A stretch of 64,000 bases of DNA, taken from contig NW_022985070.1 in assembly GCF_010015585.1 (NCBI RefSeq), positions 1,455,704 through 1,519,703 on the forward strand, read 5' to 3'. How positions within the stretch are numbered: position 1 is the first letter of the stretch; every line of letters begins with the position of its first letter. Source of the stretch: Eremomyces bilateralis CBS 781.70 (taxonomy: Eukaryota > Ascomycota > Dothideomycetes > Eremomycetales > Eremomycetaceae). Shown here one piece after another: positions 15,797 through 45,027 of this stretch. Position numbers and translations under genes: made by a program. Below the pieces are notes generated by a model. The model did not search any database. It was not told where the DNA came from and saw only the letters and a program-made list of their open reading frames with translations.

Positions 15797-18111
15797 CTAG
15801 ACGTGAAACATCTCCTTTCCAAGGCCGTTCCCTCCTCCGCCCTCCGCAACCTGCTCTGCCGCCTTCAGCAAATCATACTGAATCCCCTCTCCCACCACAC
15901 TATCCATCTGATACTCCGGATGCGTCCTCACGAACTCCCGCATCCACTTCGCGTTGTTCCACAGCCGCCCATCCGCCCGCTTCTGAATCAGCCCCAGGTA
16001 CCGCTCCAGGTTGCACCGCGTCTCGATGTCGATGTTCACGCTATCGAGATAGCTTTCCACCAGCGGAATCAGCCCTGGGAATCGGCACGACGAGGCCGTC
16101 CCGTCCCCTCCGTACTGACCGTTGATCACCTCGTCGATCGACATCAGCTCATACTCGTCCTCCACGGGACCCAGCGGCGTAGCAGGACGACTCGGCGTCG
16201 GACTAGCGGTCCTGCTCGCTCCATTTGTCCCCGGCGCACGCCCGGGTGCGCGATTATGGAACGGGTTCTTCCGGAAATAGAACTTCTGCCCGTTGACAGC
16301 GTCGCGGGCGTGGGCGCGCTCCATGTTCTCGGTGACGCACGGCATGGGGAGGTAGAAGTTCAGGTCGAAGCTGAGGATGGCGCGGGTGATGAGGACGATG
16401 AACACCGAGAAGGCGGCGTTCTCGAAGTCGGTCATCTGGATCTCCATAGAGCGGAACTCGACGCGCCAGCCGGTGCCGTCGCCGGGGGGCGGGGGCTTGA
16501 AGCGCATGTGCTGCCAGTTGGTGGATTGGAGGTTCTCGAAGTGGTCGACTTTGGAGAGGTCGAGGGTCTCGAGGTCTTCGGCAAAGATGACAATGGGGTC
16601 GCGGATGAAGAGATGCGCGAAGTGGGTGGCGAGGATGTCGTCCATGCCGCCATCGATGAGCTTCTTCTTGAGCTCCTCGTCCACGACGAGATCCGGGTCG
16701 AGATACTCCTTCCTTAATCGCGGGTCTTTCGAGATGTAGGTCGAATTGGAGGCATATCGGGACTTCGGTATTCTCCAACGGTCGTTCTTGAGGGGCTAAT
16801 CTCGCGTCAGTACTTGGCAACGCAATTTATCCCAGTGCGGAGCGAACCTCTTCTCCAAGTTCCTCTCTCGTGCGATCATCCACCGCGCGACCGATCTGAT
16901 TCCACCTCACGTCCGTGTCTGCCAAGAAGCCCTTGTATATCGGCGTCGCAGCCGTCAGGGCCATCATGATAGGGCCAATGGGCAAGAGCTGGTCGTACAT
17001 CTTCCGTCCTTCGTCGATGTTCTTGGCTTGGAATGTCATTTGCAAACAACAGCTGCCCATCCCGAAGGCCATCGCATCCATGTAGATGTAGTTCTCCTTG
17101 ACCGCCCCTTTTCGGACATCGTCATCTTCCGGCCATTTGTAGAGGTCGTAGTTGACGGTTGGATCCATCCACGGCCAGGATGTTTTTTCGTCACGGAATA
17201 CGGGCACGTTTACTTCAACCTTGCGACCCCTCCGCGACCGAATGTTGGCCGCGAGCGTTGGAAAACGGACGTGGGGATTTGCTATCTCGTCAGGAACGTA
17301 TTGAGACCGGAGTTTCTCGCCGGACGGCGGATAATACGGCGTGATGTAATCTCCCAGCCCGAGGCGAGGGAATGTAGTCACCGTCATGGGGAATTCAGTG
17401 TCGCTCATGTGCTCTTTGGCAATTTCTCGCCTGCCCGTTCCTTAGCATCTTTGTCGCAACAGAACCGTGTCGAAACCTACCTCAATTTCATGTTCAGTTC
17501 AACGTCTAACAAATCTTTAAACCCGATCCCCCATGGTTTCCCCGGGGTGGCTTCCAGCATGAATCGACCAAACTCTGCATGGAATACGGGGGCACAATAG
17601 CCATTCCTAACTAGATTAGCGAATATTTTTGCAGAATTCGAGGAGCACTTACGTCGGCACCCCTCGTTTAACATCATGGACACCTCCGCCTTCCTTGACG
17701 AGTTTCTCATTCGACGCGAGAGCCTCCAGGATGTCCGATTGCCGGAGCGATAAGCGAACTTTACGGTGTTCGTCATCAAAGCAGACGACGAGGTACTCAA
17801 CCTAAGGAGAGTCAATGTAGCTCACTGCAGTGGAAGTGCTTGTGCCTACCTCGTCACCCCACAATAGTGCATCCCGTTCTTTCCCTTTGGCCCGGTTCCA
17901 TGTTGCGAGTAGTTGCTGCAGTACCCGTGTAAGCAAAGATTGTCTCTCTGGACGATTCTAAATATGCATACCTCAATTCCCCATTCTCGTACTTGCGCGG
18001 CTTTCTTCTTCGCTTCGGGCCACTCGAGCGGCGTCCCAAGGGCTCTATCGCATGAGATATCAGAACGTTGTCGGAGGCGGGATTCGGTAGACCATCTTAC
18101 AGCAATCCCAT
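15797..18111 (-). CDS. Glutamate-cysteine ligase, catalytic subunit
   Basis: Multi-exon gene for the ATP-dependent enzyme that joins glutamate and cysteine, the first and limiting step of glutathione synthesis in the cytosol. The first exon is only 11 nt (ATGGGATTGCT); splicing over the intron that ends GATAG gives MGLLALGTPLEWPEAKK, the classic family start. Later blocks are LLATWNRAKGKERDALLWGDEVE, YLVVCFDDEHRKVRLSLRQ, FGRFMLEATPGKPWG, YIYMDAMAFGMGSCCLQMTF, HFAHLFIRDPIVIF, WRVEFRSMEIQMTDFENAAF, and a C-terminus with CRFPGLIPLVESYL. These match eukaryotic type GCLC proteins (about 700 residues) in order. Later exon borders were inferred from protein continuity. A regulatory subunit gene lies 26 kb to the right. 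Confidence 0.94.
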
Positions 18112-21100: not shown

Positions 21101-23339
21101 TTAGATCCGCGCAGGATGTAGATCGGGAGATGCCGTATCATGGGATCCGGGCTGCGGAGGTGAACTGGGACCGATGCTCTTAGGTCTTAGATTCGATGAT
21201 CCAATTGCGGTCTTATTATTAGCGCCCATCTTCCTGGTGAGCTTCGCGTAGTCTGTATGAATCGGTAAGCCTCCAATTCAACCAGTGTTGAAACAATTGC
21301 GCCATAAAATGAGGCAAAAGCATATCAATGCTCAATGTGCGAAAAGAAGAGAAACACGTACGTAGTCCGCAAGCATTACACAAAGTCCTTGCTCCATCCG
21401 GACCCCTCCTCCACTCCGGTGTTTCCGCTCGATTACAACTGTGGCATCGACCAGGGGGTGCCGCTCTCTACACGTATATTAGTATCATACTTCAATCCCG
21501 AAGTCCCGTTCTGAGAACTTACCCCTCGCCTCTTCTTCGCATCGGGTGGATACCCGCCTGCCCCACCACCCTTCGTATCCACATCATACTCATACCGATC
21601 CATCGCTCCACCGACCGCACCCCCCGCAAACATCCCGTTGCCTTTGAACCGCGCCTCGTGCTCCTGCTCCGCGATGGCCTGCTGGTTCAGCGCGAACTCT
21701 CGGATGCGCATCAAGGCCTCTTGGACCCGCTGCCCTTTTTGCAGAAGCGTGTCCACATCCGTCGGGGACGGTAGCGCGATGCTGGAGCGGTGGTGGGGTG
21801 GCATCCCATGCGGTGCGGGAGGTGGCGGCCGCTGGCCGAAGTGCTTGGCGAAATCGAGTATCTGCCCGGAACCTTCGGCGATCTGATGACCAAAGAGTTA
21901 GCGGGGGAGAAAGGTTGGAGGAAATGTGGACTCACCTCGTTCAAGGATGACTCGAAGTCGAAACTTTCTAAGTGACGCTTGATGTTCGCACCGTATGTCT
22001 CGGTTCCGGGTCTGGACCTCATCATTAGCAATAGTCACTATAGTGATTGTCGTTCACATACCTTGGCGGCCCCGCAAATGGCATCGGAGGTGCAGGGGGG
22101 AACCCCGAAGCTGTTGCTCCGCCCGGTTGCTGTCCTGGTTGGGAAGAACCTGGTTGCTGGGTTTGATGTGGTTGCTGCGAGTACGGATATGGGGGTGGAA
22201 ACTGTGAATGATATGCAAACGGTGTGGAAGGCTGTGGAGGGGGAGGAGGCACAGTGGAGGCGGACTGTGGCGGGTGCGGAGAGTGATCAAACCCGGGAGA
22301 TGGAAGCTGAGAGTGGGAATGGGTAGCTGGGTACGGCGGGAAGGGCATCGGTCGGGTAGCGTTCGGAGACGACACGGTACTTGTAGTGTTGGGAGGATGG
22401 AGAGAGAATTTTGAGTTATGTGAGCTTGAGGGGATATTGGAAAACGACGGAATCTGGTCAGGAGGATTTGGAGGCGGTTGAGGAGCATGTATTGGCTGCG
22501 GAGGTTTGCTCAAGAATGACGTGGATGACGATGAGGTCTGCGGATGTTGAAGATGCGGGGTTGATGAGGACCCAGGCATGGACTCTGAAGGGTATGACTT
22601 CTTGAACGGATCTGTTGGGCCGGATGCGGTAACAGACTGCGGAGGAACGGGTTGTGGGTAGGCATTGTGACCGCGAGGGGATGCGTTTGATGGTGGTTGA
22701 ACCGCAAAAGGAGAAACCGGATCGGAACGAAGGGCCTCGTGGATGGACGGGAGTGATTGTCGCTGAGGTGCAGTCGCTGGAGCTTTTCGTTGATCCTTAT
22801 CGTCCCCAGACGTTCGGCGTGACCCAGGGGGTGATATCAATCCGTTATGCCCTGTCATAGAGGGATCGTTGGGATAGGTGAATGAAAACGTCGTGGCCGC
22901 AGCAGTGGGCGTGGAAGAAGCAAACGGCGATTGTGATGACGGAGTACCGGCCATGGCATGGTGTCCAACGGGAACGGTCCCGCTGGGTCCGCCAATACTC
23001 CCCATGCGAGCAGCACCGAGAAAAGGAAACGTCGGGCTAACCATGGCGGTTGATGAGTGTGCCGTTCGGTGCGAATGCTCAGAGATATCGTCCCTTTTGT
23101 TCTCGGAGTTGAGAAAGTTGATCGATGGTAATGGAGGGGCACTTAACGTCGGTTAGCTTGATGTCGAGAGATTGGCAGTTCGGATACAGCCCAATGCGTC
23201 TTTCCAGACATTTATGGGTGCAGAATGATTGAAGAAAGACAAGAGCATTACGTGCTAGCCGTGCATATTCAAGAGGTGGGGAGTCAAAGGGAGATTAAAC
23301 TACTGACCTTGGCCTCATATCCACACTGGCAGCGTCCAT
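21101..23339 (-). CDS. nsdD: GATA zinc-finger transcription factor, NsdD type
   Basis: Spliced gene on the minus strand. Exon 1 (23339-23308) encodes [10 protein letters not shown] and joins across a 166-nt intron in phase to [19 protein letters not shown] long Pro/Ser/Gln-rich activation-type region follows. A conserved helical block precedes the finger: [15 protein letters not shown], then [17 protein letters not shown], then [22 protein letters not shown]. The single C-terminal GATA finger reads [22 protein letters not shown] then CNACGL, and its last part ([15 protein letters not shown]) comes from the final exon, which ends at 21101. The lone C-terminal finger with this sequence fits NsdD of Aspergillus (SUB-1 in Neurospora), a nuclear activator of sexual development and repressor of conidiation. 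The family is firm; the orthology is likely but was not tested. nsdD is known for a long 5' leader, consistent with the large upstream gap here. Confidence 0.88.
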
Positions 23340-32638: not shown

Positions 32639-32740
32639 GTCGGCCCGTACTGTGTCATTGATACGTTCCACCATCCTCACGTAGCCCCGACAGAATCGAC
32701 AGATCCATATCAAGGCCGCCCGAAGAATACAGGGAAGGGG

Positions 32741-35700
32741 ATGGACGAGCCTGTGGTGACCAGCGCCGATCAATATGGATCGACCCAGGCCCCATGGATC
32801 TCCGAGGATATGACCTCGACGGCTTGGGACAGCTGGATGCAATGGGATGGGTCGGATCCATCAGTGCCTATGAAGACCTTCAACCCTCAAGCTTCGTATA
32901 GCGCTCCGCTGGAGCCGACAACGCAACCTCAATCGTCGCAAGGCTTTTCGGGGGACACGCCGAATATGCTCCCAACTACTACGTCAGGATCGATCACTTA
33001 CTTTGGACAGCCTCTGCGCAGTCCTCACCAGTTTGAATTCCAGGCGTCATCGTCGGCTCCGAACGTCTCCGCTGGAGCGACTATAGGGGCTTCACTTCCA
33101 AGGGATCCAACCTGGCCCTCCGATGAGCGTCTCAACGGCTCCGTATCGCCATCCTTAATTACGAAGTTCCTCGAACCCGAAACTCTATCGGCCCCTCAAT
33201 ATCCTCACGTCTCTCCTCCGTCACGGTCATTATCAACGCCCAGCCTTCAACACAGCCCTCAGGACCGCCCCAGCTCATCCCATTCCGAGGCATCATCGCA
33301 AAACTCGACATCGGAGCCTGTGTCGCAGTCAAAGACCCGGAAGCGGAAAATATCAGGCGACCAGGACTCCTCGGACAATAGAACCGACAAGAACCAGCCG
33401 GTCAAGAAAACCGCCCATAACATGATCGAGAAGCGATACCGAAATAACCTCAATGACAAGATCGCGGCCCTTCGAGATAGTGTACCAAGTCTTCGCGTCA
33501 TGAGCCGAACTAATGACAGCAAAGACGAGGATGAGACGGAAGATTTAGAAGGGTTGACTCCGGCTCACAAGCTGAATAAAGCGACCGTCTTGTCCAAAGC
33601 TACCGAGTATATTCGCCATCTTGAAAAGAGCAATAAGCGCCTTTCCGATGAGATGGCGACCCTTCGAGCACGGCTAGATACGTATGATCGGCTTGCGACG
33701 ACCGCACCGTTGACCTTCAACCCCTCAGTTACGGGCACACCGGGATCCCACCAATTTCCCGAAGATGCTTTCTCGCCAAAGTCGAGCGCGCTGTCGACAC
33801 AAGCTCCCCAGCGGCCTCCTCAGGGCATGATTCCTCTGCCAGAAAGCATGATCAACCTGCATCGAGCCGCGATGAGCCAGGCTCATTATGCCCAACAACA
33901 AGCAGGATATCCGCAATATAGTGCTGCACCCGACCATTCGAATGCTCCGCCGCAACCTGGAATGCCGGCTGGCCGTGGATACTCGTTCGGGAATAAACTG
34001 ATTGTAGGATCGCTTGCTGGTATCATGATCCTCGAAGGATTCTCTGAGAGCGAGTCCGAGAGCGAGGGTACAGAAGCACGAGGATTGATGGCGCTGCCGA
34101 TGCAGCTTCTGAACATGCCCGGTATTCCCGCGTCCTTTGGCGGCCCGTCGGCGGTGTACTTCAAGCTTGCGAAGAGCATGTTGGTCTTCTGTGCCGTCGT
34201 TTACCTCTTGTTGCCGTTGTTCGATTTCAAACCGAAACCCAAACGGAAAACCATCGCCCCCATCCGACTGGCACCCGCTCCATCGTCGGCTTCGCCCGTC
34301 GAGGTCCGACAAATGGCCTGGCTGACGGCCATCCAAACGGTCTGGGTCCCACAGCATAGTTTCTTCCTGGAAGTAGCGGCTTTAGGTCTCAAGACGCTGA
34401 AGCTCAGCACACGCAAGCTGATCGGCTGGCATGGCTATGCTTTACTCACCGGCATCACAAAAGAGCAGGAGCTCGCTCGCGTCAAGGCATGGGAAATCGC
34501 ATTGGACTCTCAACTCACCGGGGGGGACGCGGAGATTAGCATGAGCCGCCTGGTGCTCACGCTCGTGGCGTCGGCGACGTTGCCTAGCACGCCAGAGCGC
34601 CTGATGCTCAAGGCCCTGCACATTCGCGTGCTGCTGTGGGAGGTTGCCAACGCCGGCTACGGTGCGTGGTATATGTTCGAAGAGCTTAGTGCGAAGCTGG
34701 CTCGAGGCTATTGGAAGGCCGCGCTTGCCGACATCTCCGTTTCGAACGGGTTGGGGAAAGATGGTCGCGAGGGTGATGCGGCGTTGCCGGATCACCTTAT
34801 CGCGCTTCTCGAGCAACCCTGCGACGATGTCTTGGTCCAGCCGATTGTCCAGCGGGCATATAACCTCGCGTGGAATAAACCTCGTGATGTCTCGAGTCGG
34901 TGTGTCGACGACCTAATGGACAGCGTGATCGAAGATTTCTCCATCTCATCCCCCCTCGACGCCCTAGCAGCATGGTGGTCAAGCCTCGCGCTCAACAAGG
35001 CCCTCTGCATTTTCCTCGACCCTTCTCCCACCCCGACCTTATCCACCTCCCCCACCTCCTCCACCTCACCAAGCTCCACATCCTCGTCCTCCTCCATCAT
35101 CCACCACCTCGACCTCGCCATCCGCACCGCCCCCCCGGGTTCCACCGCACACATCCGCGCCCTCGTCGCCCGCACCATCCTCGACAACCACGATCCCCGC
35201 GCCTCTATCTCCGCCGCCCTCTCCGCCCTTCCGCCCTCCCCATCCCCCTTCCCCCTTTCAACCCTCGTCATCAACGCTATCTCCCCCCGCCCCGTTGCCC
35301 TCGACGTCCGCGTCGCCCTCACCCTCGCCAAGTGCCTTTGCCTCGCTGAAACCCCCCACTCACCAATCCATCACTCCGCCGCCGCCGACGACGCGCGCGC
35401 GCGCGCCGCTGCGGTGGTCAACTCGCCGCTGGTGGCGCGCCCGGACGAGTTCACGCTGCTGTCGTTCGTGGCGGCGTATACGGTGCTGAACGCGTTCGTA
35501 GAGGACGCGGGGATGTTAGGTCGGTGTAGGGCGGGGCTGGAGCGGTGGGCTGGGGCGCTAAGGGTGTGGGTTGGGGGGCCGAGCGGGGCACGGATCGGGC
35601 TGGGGGAGGGAGGGAGGGAGAGGGTAGTGGAGAGGTGTATTGCGGTGAGTCGGGTGTTGGTGGGGGTGGAGGAGGAGAAGGAGGGAGTGGAGGAGGAGAT

Positions 35701-35758
35701 TGATGCGGGGTATGCGAGTCTGGAGGAGGGGGAGGTGCCGGGCGTGGAGGCGCTGTGA
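32741..35758 (+). CDS. srbA: Sterol regulatory element-binding protein (SREBP)
   Basis: Uninterrupted 1005-codon frame for a membrane-bound bHLH transcription factor. The N-terminal part is Ser/Pro/Gln-rich with an acidic segment (WDSWMQWD). The bHLH-zipper spans about residues 223-305; its basic part NMIEKRYRNNLNDKI has the Tyr that marks SREBPs, where other bHLH proteins have Arg. Helix 2 is KLNKATVLSKATEYIRHLEKSN. Two hydrophobic segments follow, KLIVGSLAGIMILEGF (about 418-434) and SMLVFCAVVYLLLPLF (about 479-495), with a short loop between, giving the hairpin topology needed for cleavage release. The C-terminal part matches the fungal SREBP tail (DUF2014). SrbA controls ergosterol synthesis, hypoxia adaptation and azole response in Aspergillus. 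The chosen ATG is conservative: an upstream spliced exon (32461-32550) could add 64 residues. The last third has very C-rich then G-rich codon use. Confidence 0.93.
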   Translation: MDEPVVTSADQYGSTQAPWISEDMTSTAWDSWMQWDGSDPSVPMKTFNPQASYSAPLEPTTQPQSSQGFSGDTPNMLPTTTSGSITYFGQPLRSPHQFEFQASSSAPNVSAGATIGASLPRDPTWPSDERLNGSVSPSLITKFLEPETLSAPQYPHVSPPSRSLSTPSLQHSPQDRPSSSHSEASSQNSTSEPVSQSKTRKRKISGDQDSSDNRTDKNQPVKKTAHNMIEKRYRNNLNDKIAALRDSVPSLRVMSRTNDSKDEDETEDLEGLTPAHKLNKATVLSKATEYIRHLEKSNKRLSDEMATLRARLDTYDRLATTAPLTFNPSVTGTPGSHQFPEDAFSPKSSALSTQAPQRPPQGMIPLPESMINLHRAAMSQAHYAQQQAGYPQYSAAPDHSNAPPQPGMPAGRGYSFGNKLIVGSLAGIMILEGFSESESESEGTEARGLMALPMQLLNMPGIPASFGGPSAVYFKLAKSMLVFCAVVYLLLPLFDFKPKPKRKTIAPIRLAPAPSSASPVEVRQMAWLTAIQTVWVPQHSFFLEVAALGLKTLKLSTRKLIGWHGYALLTGITKEQELARVKAWEIALDSQLTGGDAEISMSRLVLTLVASATLPSTPERLMLKALHIRVLLWEVANAGYGAWYMFEELSAKLARGYWKAALADISVSNGLGKDGREGDAALPDHLIALLEQPCDDVLVQPIVQRAYNLAWNKPRDVSSRCVDDLMDSVIEDFSISSPLDALAAWWSSLALNKALCIFLDPSPTPTLSTSPTSSTSPSSTSSSSSIIHHLDLAIRTAPPGSTAHIRALVARTILDNHDPRASISAALSALPPSPSPFPLSTLVINAISPRPVALDVRVALTLAKCLCLAETPHSPIHHSAAADDARARAAAVVNSPLVARPDEFTLLSFVAAYTVLNAFVEDAGMLGRCRAGLERWAGALRVWVGGPSGARIGLGEGGRERVVERCIAVSRVLVGVEEEKEGVEEEIDAGYASLEEGEVPGVEAL

Positions 35759-42037: not shown

Positions 42038-42607
42038 ATGTCCTCGACCAGCAACGCCGTCCCCGGCGCCCTCCGCCTCAAAGGCCGCGGCGTCGACAAG
42101 AAGAAGAAGAAGAAACGCCCGAAGCCCAACGACGCGACCACCCCCGCAACTCACTCGAACCATGCGGCAACCATGAATGAACTCCCAGCGACGGAGACAG
42201 GCGAGGTAATGAAGGGTGAGGAGGGAGGGAAGGGGGAGCGGGAGAAGAAGGAGGTGGAAAGGTTGGAGCGGGAGATTGTGGAGGCGACGCGGGCGGGGAT
42301 GAGCGGGCGGACGGAGGCGGAGAGGCGGTATGAGGAGCGGAGACGGGAGCGGGTATGTTTTCCCTAACTATCCCCCGTGGCTTTTACATCTCGGTTTGGT
42401 GGTTTGAACGAGGAGATGGCGTGCTGACGGTTGTAGATGGCGGAGCGGATGCGGCGCGAGGGAGCGAAGACGCATAAAGAGAAGGTGCAGGAGTTGAATC
42501 GGTATTTGTCGGGGTTGAGTGAGCATCATGATATGTGAGTAGTCGTGGAGGGCTTGTGGTTTGTGATGCGTGCTAATGGAGTTAGGCCGAGAATTGGACC
42601 TGGTTAA
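42038..42607 (+). CDS. FAM32A-like nuclear protein (DUF1754)
   Basis: Three exons (42038-42352, 42437-42534, 42586-42607) give 144 residues. The protein has a short N-terminus with GALRLKG, a Lys-rich block (KKKKKKRPK), a charged middle, the signature GRTEAERRYEERRRER, and a C-terminus KTHKEKVQELNRYLSGLSEHHDMPRIGPG split over two exons. This order matches the DUF1754/FAM32A family, nuclear proteins tied to the spliceosome in animals. The ending PRIGPG, the conserved terminus, is only produced by the second splice (GATAT|GTGAGT to TTAG|GCCGAG), which supports the model. Confidence 0.9.
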
Positions 42608-42735
42608 AGACCGGACGATGGGATCGATGATGCGTGGTATGGCCTAGGGTTCTACTGTATTGATGTGCAACTGGCGTTTGGAAAATCGGTTGGGAGTTAG
42701 GGAGGGTTTATGATCGGTGCCTGACTCGACATCAT

Positions 42736-42820
42736 GAAGGGTTAGGCCGGATGATTCAAGCACTGATATCTGGTGAAGGGTTAGGACGGATGATTCAAGC
42801 ACTGATATCTGGTGAAGGGT
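42736..42820 (+). repeat. 39-bp direct tandem repeat, 2.2 copies
   Basis: Two 39-bp units, starting at 42736 and 42775, differ at one base (CCGG versus ACGG) and are followed by 7 bases of a third copy. They lie between the FAM32A-like gene and the pheromone-receptor relic. No coding role is apparent. Confidence 0.9.
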
Positions 42821-42997
42821 AAAAGTGTGGTATTGCTTTTGTACCTGATGTGTTAGAGTAGATGGTACTCTCCGTACCACGACTAGAAGCGCCTAGAGGG
42901 TCAAAATACAACCACCCTAGTTAACCCGCTCGCGAAAGACTCAGTCCAAACCACTCCTCTCCCCCCGTCCATTATAGCCCCCCTTTCCGTTCAATCA

Positions 42998-43458
42998 TCA
43001 CCCCGCCACATCAGGAAGCTCTCCCTGACCATTCACCGCCATGACGGTCGCCTTCCGCGTCGTCTCGTCGTCCGCATACGAGTTCTTGCCCTTCGAACTC
43101 CCCACGCTGCCGTTCCGGAACACGTTCCACAATATCGGCCGCCGGGGATGGTGGTCGCTCGCGGCGCTCCGCGAATGGTTCTCGACCGCCTGTGCGGCCC
43201 AGAGGGCGGAGAACGGCAGGGAGATGGCCACGGCGGTGTAGATCAGCGCGGCGAGCTGCGGTGCGGTCCCGATGTATTGGCAGACGATGAGCATGATGAA
43301 GGTGGCGCCGATTTACGTGCCGTAGTCGATGCAGGACCTGCCGCCGTGTTGAGGAAGTCGCGGAGGTCGGCGAGGGGGATGATGAGGGTAGTGTTGCCCG
43401 AGAGGAAGGAAAAAGATTGGTTGAAGGAGTCGATGGGGGTGGTGGTGTTGGATGTCAT
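42998..43458 (-). pseudogene. Relic of an alpha-pheromone receptor (Ste2/PreB-type GPCR)
   Basis: On the minus strand the ATG at 43458 begins MTSNTTTPIDSFNQSFSFL, then IPLADLRDFLNT, like the extracellular N-terminus of fungal Ste2/PreB receptors. A shifted frame then gives CIDYGT, a TAA stop, and IGATFIMLIV, matching the start of TM1. This runs straight into CQYIGTAPQLAALIYTAVAISLPFSALWAA, which matches the end of TM6, the third outer loop and TM7 (the LPLSSLWA motif). A cytosolic tail follows (NVFRNGSVGSSKGKNSYAD) to a stop at 42998. About 200 residues covering most of TM1 to TM6 are therefore absent, with one frame shift and one stop as well. The intact receptor detects alpha-pheromone and signals through a G protein in mating. 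No intron can restore the missing part, as the DNA is absent. Another copy may exist elsewhere in the genome. Confidence 0.72.
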
Positions 43459-44118
43459 GTTGTTGGTAGTCTGCTTTTTGGGGGTCTTGTTTGCCAGAAA
43501 TCAAGACCGCTTGGATGGTGATGTAGAAGATTGTATTTGCAAGAAGAAGAAGAAGAAGCAGAAGAAAGGAGGAATGAAGTGACTTAAGAAAGATTGACGG
43601 TTGAAGGAAAGGCGGATATTATATCGTTGTAGTAAAGCCAATATGGCGTTGACAATACTATGGGGGACAATATATAGCAGAGCATATGGACAATGCTAAG
43701 CCAGGCGGATGCCTCTGTGACTGAATCCAACTCAGGAGGCGTATCGCGAACCGGATGCATAGAGCAGCTAAGATGAAGGTTTCAGGGACAATGCTAAGAT
43801 TCTGCTATTGTTCATCCTCTTAATATTGATCAAATCTTAATCATGTCTTGTATGCCCCTACCAATATTCCGCGACTGGGGACTGTCGTAAATGGACAGTG
43901 GCTATCACAGTCATTTTCCGTGCTAACCATCTTCTAGTAATGTGATGTGTGTGATCCTGGGTGGGGTCGTTGACAATCCGCTTGAAGCGACGCCACCCAG
44001 GGGAACGATTCGCATTCACCACTGCTGTCGATACCAAATGGCTCTGTGTATAAAACAGAATCTTCAATCTCGGCATGTGTCGGATCGTGGTGGAAATGGC
44101 GGGACTCCATCTCCACCC
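43459..44118. other. Intergenic region between the receptor relic and the GCL regulatory gene
   Basis: No gene seen. An (AAG)n run lies at about 43533-43556, just upstream of the relic's start. Otherwise unremarkable. Confidence 0.5.
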
Positions 44119-45027
44119 TCAGCTGACGTTGGCGACGGCGAAGTACCCTTTGCTTTCGACGACCCCCCGATCCTTGACCACCGCAGTGTATTTCACCACA
44201 AACTGCGGTTCGACATTGCCAGTCAAGGCGGGATTCACCTGGCTCAGTTGGGACAGTAGATCCACCCCGGCATCCGTCGGACCCAGCAGTTCGGTCAACG
44301 TCCCTCGCGGCAGGACGTCGGTGCAGTCGTTATGCGTGAGCAGCTCGATCGACTCCTTTTTCCCGAACATGATGAGCTGTTTGGGAACGACGCAGCAATC
44401 TCGCACATTGATCTGGTCGACGGCGGGCTTGACCCGCACGTTCGGGAGCAGGCGTTGCAGACGGTTCGTCCCAAACTCGGACAGTCCCAAGCTCTTGATC
44501 GAGCCGTCCTCATACAGCTGTTCCAAAATCCGCCACGTCTGGCTGACCATGTCCACTTCAGCCCGGGTGGCATCGTCGTCGGCCACCCCGTTCTGTAGCG
44601 GCTCCTCCTCGTCCTCGTCGTCCGCGTCGAAGGTGATCCCCGGAAACGACACGATCAGCAAGTCAATGGTGGAGACGCGCAGCTTCTTGAGGACCAAGGC
44701 GATCGCCTCGCGCGTGTGCGCGCATCGTAGTTCCGTGCCTACGCCCGGGAGGTAGAATAGCTTGACGGTGATGTCGTATTGCTCTGGGTCTTCGCTTAGG
44801 CCGGAACAGGGGGATTCGAGCGACGGGACCGATATCTGATCACCGTCGGTCGTCGTCCATGCGCTGAGGGGGAGGTTGGAGACGTCGTCAGGCTTGGTGT
44901 CGCCGTTCTGGTCGGGGTCGACGGCGGCGTCCTTGGCGGCTTGGATGTTAGAGCGGAGGGAGCTGATGAGTTCCAGGTTGGACTTTTCGGCATGGGATTG
45001 GCGGATGAGAGGGGGGCCGCCACTCAT
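44119..45027 (-). CDS. Glutamate-cysteine ligase regulatory (modifier) subunit
   Basis: Single exon, 302 residues, aldo/keto-reductase-like fold. The order STIDLLIVSFPGITFD, then TWRILEQLYEDGSIKSLGLSEFG, then LQRLLPNVRVKPAVDQINVRDCCVVPKQLIMFGKK fits the modifier subunit family (GCLM in animals), including the AKR-like pattern 'LGLSEF...PAVDQINV'. The catalytic Tyr/Lys of true reductases are not evident. The N-terminal ~90 residues are polar and probably disordered. The subunit binds the catalytic ligase and tunes its affinity for glutamate and feedback by glutathione. The catalytic partner is encoded at 15797-18111 in the same window. The start is the ATG followed by SGGPPLIRQ. Confidence 0.82.
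   Translation of the reverse strand: MSGGPPLIRQSHAEKSNLELISSLRSNIQAAKDAAVDPDQNGDTKPDDVSNLPLSAWTTTDGDQISVPSLESPCSGLSEDPEQYDITVKLFYLPGVGTELRCAHTREAIALVLKKLRVSTIDLLIVSFPGITFDADDEDEEEPLQNGVADDDATRAEVDMVSQTWRILEQLYEDGSIKSLGLSEFGTNRLQRLLPNVRVKPAVDQINVRDCCVVPKQLIMFGKKESIELLTHNDCTDVLPRGTLTELLGPTDAGVDLLSQLSQVNPALTGNVEPQFVVKYTAVVKDRGVVESKGYFAVANVS

Follow-up and report, generated by a model that had tools for sequence, protein, structure and literature searches.

The minus-strand stretch at positions 42998..43458 of the analysed window (the whole stretch of 64,000 nucleotides) is what remains of an alpha-pheromone receptor gene of the Ste2/PreB type, and it is very probably the pseudogene of the only preB/STE2 found in this mould of homothallic genotype, decayed at its probable original place. 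Positions 43458 to 42998 were translated in all three minus-strand frames, and the coordinates and strand given in the original prediction were correct. The N-terminal part is read in frame 0 from the ATG at 43458 (43339..43458) and lies within the stretch that matches positions 2-53 of the Pfam STE2 profile (PF02116). The reading then has to shift from frame 0 to frame 2, at about 43339..43342 (near 43340), after which the start of TM1 is found in frame 2 (GRSCIDYGT-stop-IGATFIMLIV, 43283..43342, by translation and profile match) with an in-frame TAA stop inside it (43313..43315, read as 43315-43313). At the deletion junction (43282..43283), placed by the profile matches, TM1 passes directly into the end of TM6, outer loop 3 and TM7 (ISLPFSALWAA, 43193..43282), and these are followed by a cytoplasmic tail that is open, as judged from the frames and from GC by codon position (43001..43192), and then by a TGA stop (43000-42998).

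The original prediction had described the two ends of a receptor joined directly to each other, with roughly 200 residues lost, one stop and one frame change, and all of these points were borne out. PF02116 matches in two stretches and profile positions 54-245 are absent; counted on this profile, the missing part amounts to 192 positions, which take in the remainder of TM1 and extend through most of TM6. Together with the stop and the frame change, this leaves the remnant without seven TM helices in one open frame. Splicing does not restore one: with GT-AG introns of 38-139 nt and donors at 43428-43284, we obtained no open frame leading from the N-terminus to TM7. Because most of the helical part responsible for pheromone binding and G-protein coupling has been lost, we strongly infer from the sequence that the strain should not sense alpha-pheromone via the Ste2 route.

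It could be argued that the gene is broken in the assembly only, and that an intact gene lost its middle through misassembly or a sequencing error, given that a single assembly of 62 contigs was available. We regard this as very improbable, since the stop, the frame change and the deletion would have to be three separate faults within 461 bases, whereas the window contains no N, the adjacent long frames (1890 and 1039 codons) are uninterrupted, and the genome holds no second STE2 match. No repeats were found at the deletion junction within 42500-44000. A 39-bp tandem pair, 97% alike, is located just downstream of the remnant at window positions 42735-42812.

The identity of the remnant was assessed on a single read-through protein in which X stood for the frame change and for the stop. 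This X-read reached 37.2 bits against PF02116 (E 2.5e-9), above the curated cut-off of 27.2 bits, in two stretches of which the better covers profile 2-53, and it is this significant family match that supports the comparison of both ends with Ste2/PreB made in the original prediction. The TM7 piece alone matched profile 246-279 with an E of 9.8e-5 and 22.2 bits, which is under the cut-off, and the two N-terminal pieces had no Pfam match when searched separately. The match in two stretches therefore identifies both ends as Ste2, in the correct order and on the same strand. In a shuffle test against yeast Ste2, in which the score was compared with 1000 peptide shuffles and 1000 Ste2 shuffles, TM7 was supported, its score being reached by 0 and 1 shuffles, respectively. 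TM1 (41 and 33 per 1000) and the whole remnant (45 and 33 per 1000) received weak support, and neither the N-terminus alone (550 and 508 per 1000) nor the N-terminus plus TM1 (250 and 208 per 1000) was supported. Since the yeast Ste2 shuffles give weaker support here, the N-terminal match depends on the Pfam profile. Solved structures included no match to a 104-aa piece of the remnant with an E of 1 or less.

The base composition of the remnant is of the coding type. The GC fractions at the three codon positions are 0.60/0.50/0.87 for the part from TM1 to the tail (43312-43001) and 0.40/0.47/0.85 for the N-terminal part, and the third-position values of three intact genes in the window are 0.71, 0.80 and 0.82; this suggests that the decay is recent. 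Repeat-induced point mutation was considered and rejected, as the indices of the remnant (0.30 and 1.08) are not above those of the window (0.58 and 1.18); those of a neighbouring gene are 0.39 and 0.96. The same composition has to be considered for the 98-aa frame that runs from an internal ATG at 43294 through TM7 and the tail (43001..43294) and is translatable in principle. That this peptide, or a 71-aa N-terminal one, might be made and play a new or dominant-negative role towards the G protein is a conjecture to which we attach very little probability. Its starting point would be that the frame is open from the ATG to the stop with a third-position GC of 0.87 over 43312-43001, but GC-rich frames stay open by chance, and here a 147-aa frame overlaps the TM7-plus-tail frame and the opposite strand holds a 231-aa frame. 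Because the high GC leaves other frames open too, the open tail alone proves nothing.

The original prediction had made its biological consequence depend on this being the only copy, and the genome search agrees with that. In the 26,628,646 bases (26.6 Mb) searched, distributed over 62 contigs, the STE2 profile had no match at E up to 0.001, and at E up to 10 it matched one place, the remnant itself (E 0.0124, profile 247-279). The 104-aa piece likewise matched only itself. As a positive control, the STE3 profile gave an E of 3.9e-58 in the same genome search; because STE3 was found, and the remnant was found from 33 profile positions, an intact STE2 in the assembly should be detectable. Yeast Ste2 found nothing in the genome and missed the remnant itself, so that this search carries no weight either way, and the 14 further genomes of the search control are prokaryotes and uninformative for STE2. 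The remnant might still be a spare copy, with an intact and highly diverged alpha-pheromone receptor elsewhere, given that the genome search scores the best candidates only and ignores introns. This is hardly probable, in view of the isolated STE2 match at E up to 10, the ready detection of PreA and the agreement of the region with the STE2 region of Aspergillus fumigatus.

That agreement is based on two other genes of the window, compared by gene number. The remnant is next to an open aldo/keto reductase-type gene on the minus strand (44119..45024; PF00248, E 2.2e-11), and the window also contains a Maf1 gene. An nsdD-like GATA factor (21101..23044, minus strand) is predicted as a five-exon gene of 558 aa with a GATA finger and no lesion seen, in line with the intact nsdD of the original prediction, and a glutamate-cysteine ligase of the gshA type (15800..16795, minus strand; PF03074, E 7.9e-121) served as a synteny marker. 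An SREBP-type gene, which combines HLH and DUF2014 in a single open frame, lies between nsdD and the remnant at window positions 32639-35755. In A. fumigatus, according to the excerpts of three papers available to us, STE2 is Afu3g14330 (PMC6826560), nsdD is Afu3g13870 (PMC4929475) and the ligase gshA is Afu3g13900 (PMC6250123). In A. fumigatus these genes are separated by as many as 46 gene numbers, whereas genes of the same three kinds, the STE2 one as a remnant, all lie inside 28 kb here. Because STE2, nsdD and gshA share one A. fumigatus region, the remnant is probably the original preB gene, still in place.

The mating-type genes of both kinds were found in this one haploid genome, on different contigs, which constitutes a homothallic genotype; homothallism is thus read from the genotype and would be a prediction as regards behaviour. 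MAT1-1-1 lies on contig 9 (PF04769). In its model, which begins with the ATG at L013:4776 (region L013:4744-4893; contig 9, about 180743-180892), the alpha-box profile is matched only from position 37 onwards, and a piece just upstream, FLNRFLALLP, looks alpha-box-like by eye, in another frame and without an ATG. This alpha-box-like stretch suggests that MAT1-1-1 may have a damaged start; Pfam gave no match for the upstream piece. None of the frames near MAT1-1-1 resembled SLA2 or APN2 by eye. On contig 15, an HMG gene of the MAT1-2-1 type, with an intron inside the box, adjoins an APN2-like nuclease gene (Exo_endo_phos above its cut-off, GRF finger below its cut-off) and is also near an APC5-like frame, named by eye. 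We named it MAT1-2-1 by eye, because of its HMG box and its APN2-like neighbour. The a-pheromone receptor PreA (STE3-type) is complete, with a one-intron model of 481 aa that covers the STE3 profile over 1-292 of 292 positions; the coordinates place a TGA counted in its first stretch within the predicted intron. The layout of the MAT genes resembles that of Aspergillus cristatus, in which, as far as the available part of the paper goes, MAT1-2 is beside SLA2/APN-type genes and MAT1-1 is at an unrelated locus (PMC4895823), with a MAT1-2-1-type gene beside an APN2-like gene and MAT1-1-1 on a different contig here. In the main text of that paper, in the form available to us, the words "receptor" and "preB" are absent. 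The label "Aspergillus-like", as we apply it to this genome, is based on the MAT layout and the synteny. A 5.8S rDNA pattern was absent from the assembly.

The alpha-pheromone precursor was searched for by sequence patterns, which would miss an intron-split peptide or an altered motif. The motif WCTRPGQGC, given for Paracoccidioides and Histoplasma in the portion of the source at hand (PMC3464258), fits the pattern WCxxxGQxC, which had 3 matches in the genome as against 0 for the reversed control. All three were rejected as precursors by eye, one lying in a long F-box-like frame and two in stop-bounded frames of 69 and 22 codons. A loose pattern had 97 matches versus 94 in the reversed control; 22 were dropped for a stop within nine codons, leaving 75, and among the frames inspected around 50 of these (28, a further 20 chosen and 2 more) none was precursor-like. 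With one mismatch allowed, 76 matches were obtained versus 63 in the control, and one that was not shared with the other lists was inspected and rejected. These searches, which were weak and whose matches were read in part, yielded no convincing precursor of alpha-pheromone.

It is possible, albeit on the doubtful side, that the whole alpha side is being dismantled: the receptor is reduced to its ends, there is no recognisable alpha-pheromone and MAT1-1-1 has a doubtful start, while no damage is apparent in the a-receptor, MAT1-2-1 or nsdD. If so, selfing would proceed on PreA alone or would be pheromone-free. As for the receptor itself, a fungus whose genome carries both mating-type genes would have no need to find a partner, and selection on alpha-pheromone sensing may have been relaxed; the gene would then have been lost recently enough for the coding-type base composition to persist. 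Selfing, if it still occurs, might operate via PreA and the a-pheromone, or through an intracellular start without pheromone. Results from other homothallic species suggest what to expect. In the excerpted account of PMC6562746, single deletions of gprA or gprB in A. nidulans reduce self-fertility, the double deletion abolishes ascomata and outcrossing is unaffected, and the alpha pair is non-essential for selfing in Fusarium graminearum. From the A. nidulans single-receptor results and those of F. graminearum, it follows that a preB null could be self-fertile at a reduced or compensated level. The A. nidulans mutants are homothallic and lack one receptor, as here, but through laboratory deletion, whereas the loss seen here is natural. 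In A. nidulans both receptors count for selfing, yet the present mould, with its homothallic genotype, seems to have persisted with one of them lost.

According to a survey of aspergilli, in the part of it available to us, every presumed asexual species that was studied has homologs of preA and preB, with spliced transcripts expressed (PMC5307856). The Aspergillus PreB/GprA receptors (STE2-type, e.g. Afu3g14330) belong to the same Pfam STE2 family and, by gene number, that of A. fumigatus shares a chromosome region with nsdD and gshA, but in contrast to the surveyed aspergilli only a remnant is found here, which lacks the remainder of TM1 and everything up to and including most of TM6. A further likeness is to Ambrosiella (Ceratocystidaceae), in which, according to the accessible portion of PMC13037118, the species are primary homothallic, sexual species are reported and no alpha-pheromone gene was found, and the alpha receptors have helices deleted, with three or four left and with deletions that are mostly unique to a species. 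Both cases combine homothallism, here as a genotype, with an alpha receptor that is missing helices through deletion. They differ in that Ambrosiella belongs to the Sordariomycetes, whereas the present genome is Aspergillus-like and its remnant retains no helices beyond TM7 and the first part of TM1, and carries a stop and a frame change in addition. Loss of the alpha receptor is thus already known in Sordariomycetes, as far as that portion tells; no report of such a loss in an Aspergillus-like mould or in Eurotiales was found in the open-licence literature, mostly seen at listing level. The remnant is a new case of an already known receptor-pseudogene phenomenon, of moderate interest as a natural experiment: a preB null found in nature beside a complete preA offers a test of whether selfing requires pheromone sensing, and it is a caution that related moulds need not retain both receptors.

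The HMG-box search of the genome gave 9 matches at 8 loci, and a box was shown by script at 3 of the 8 (L007, L010 and L011), with L007 and L010 being one gene. When the HMG loci were re-read on both strands, L005, L008 and L009 showed boxes and the box of L012 was doubtful; L006 was inspected separately. Among the candidates, the Pfam scan covered the contig 15 gene. The HMG genes at L014:2327-4806 (contig 9) and L005 (contig 1) were not taken for MAT1-2-1, and the former resembles, by eye, the sexual development regulators of the Ste11/FMF-1 type.
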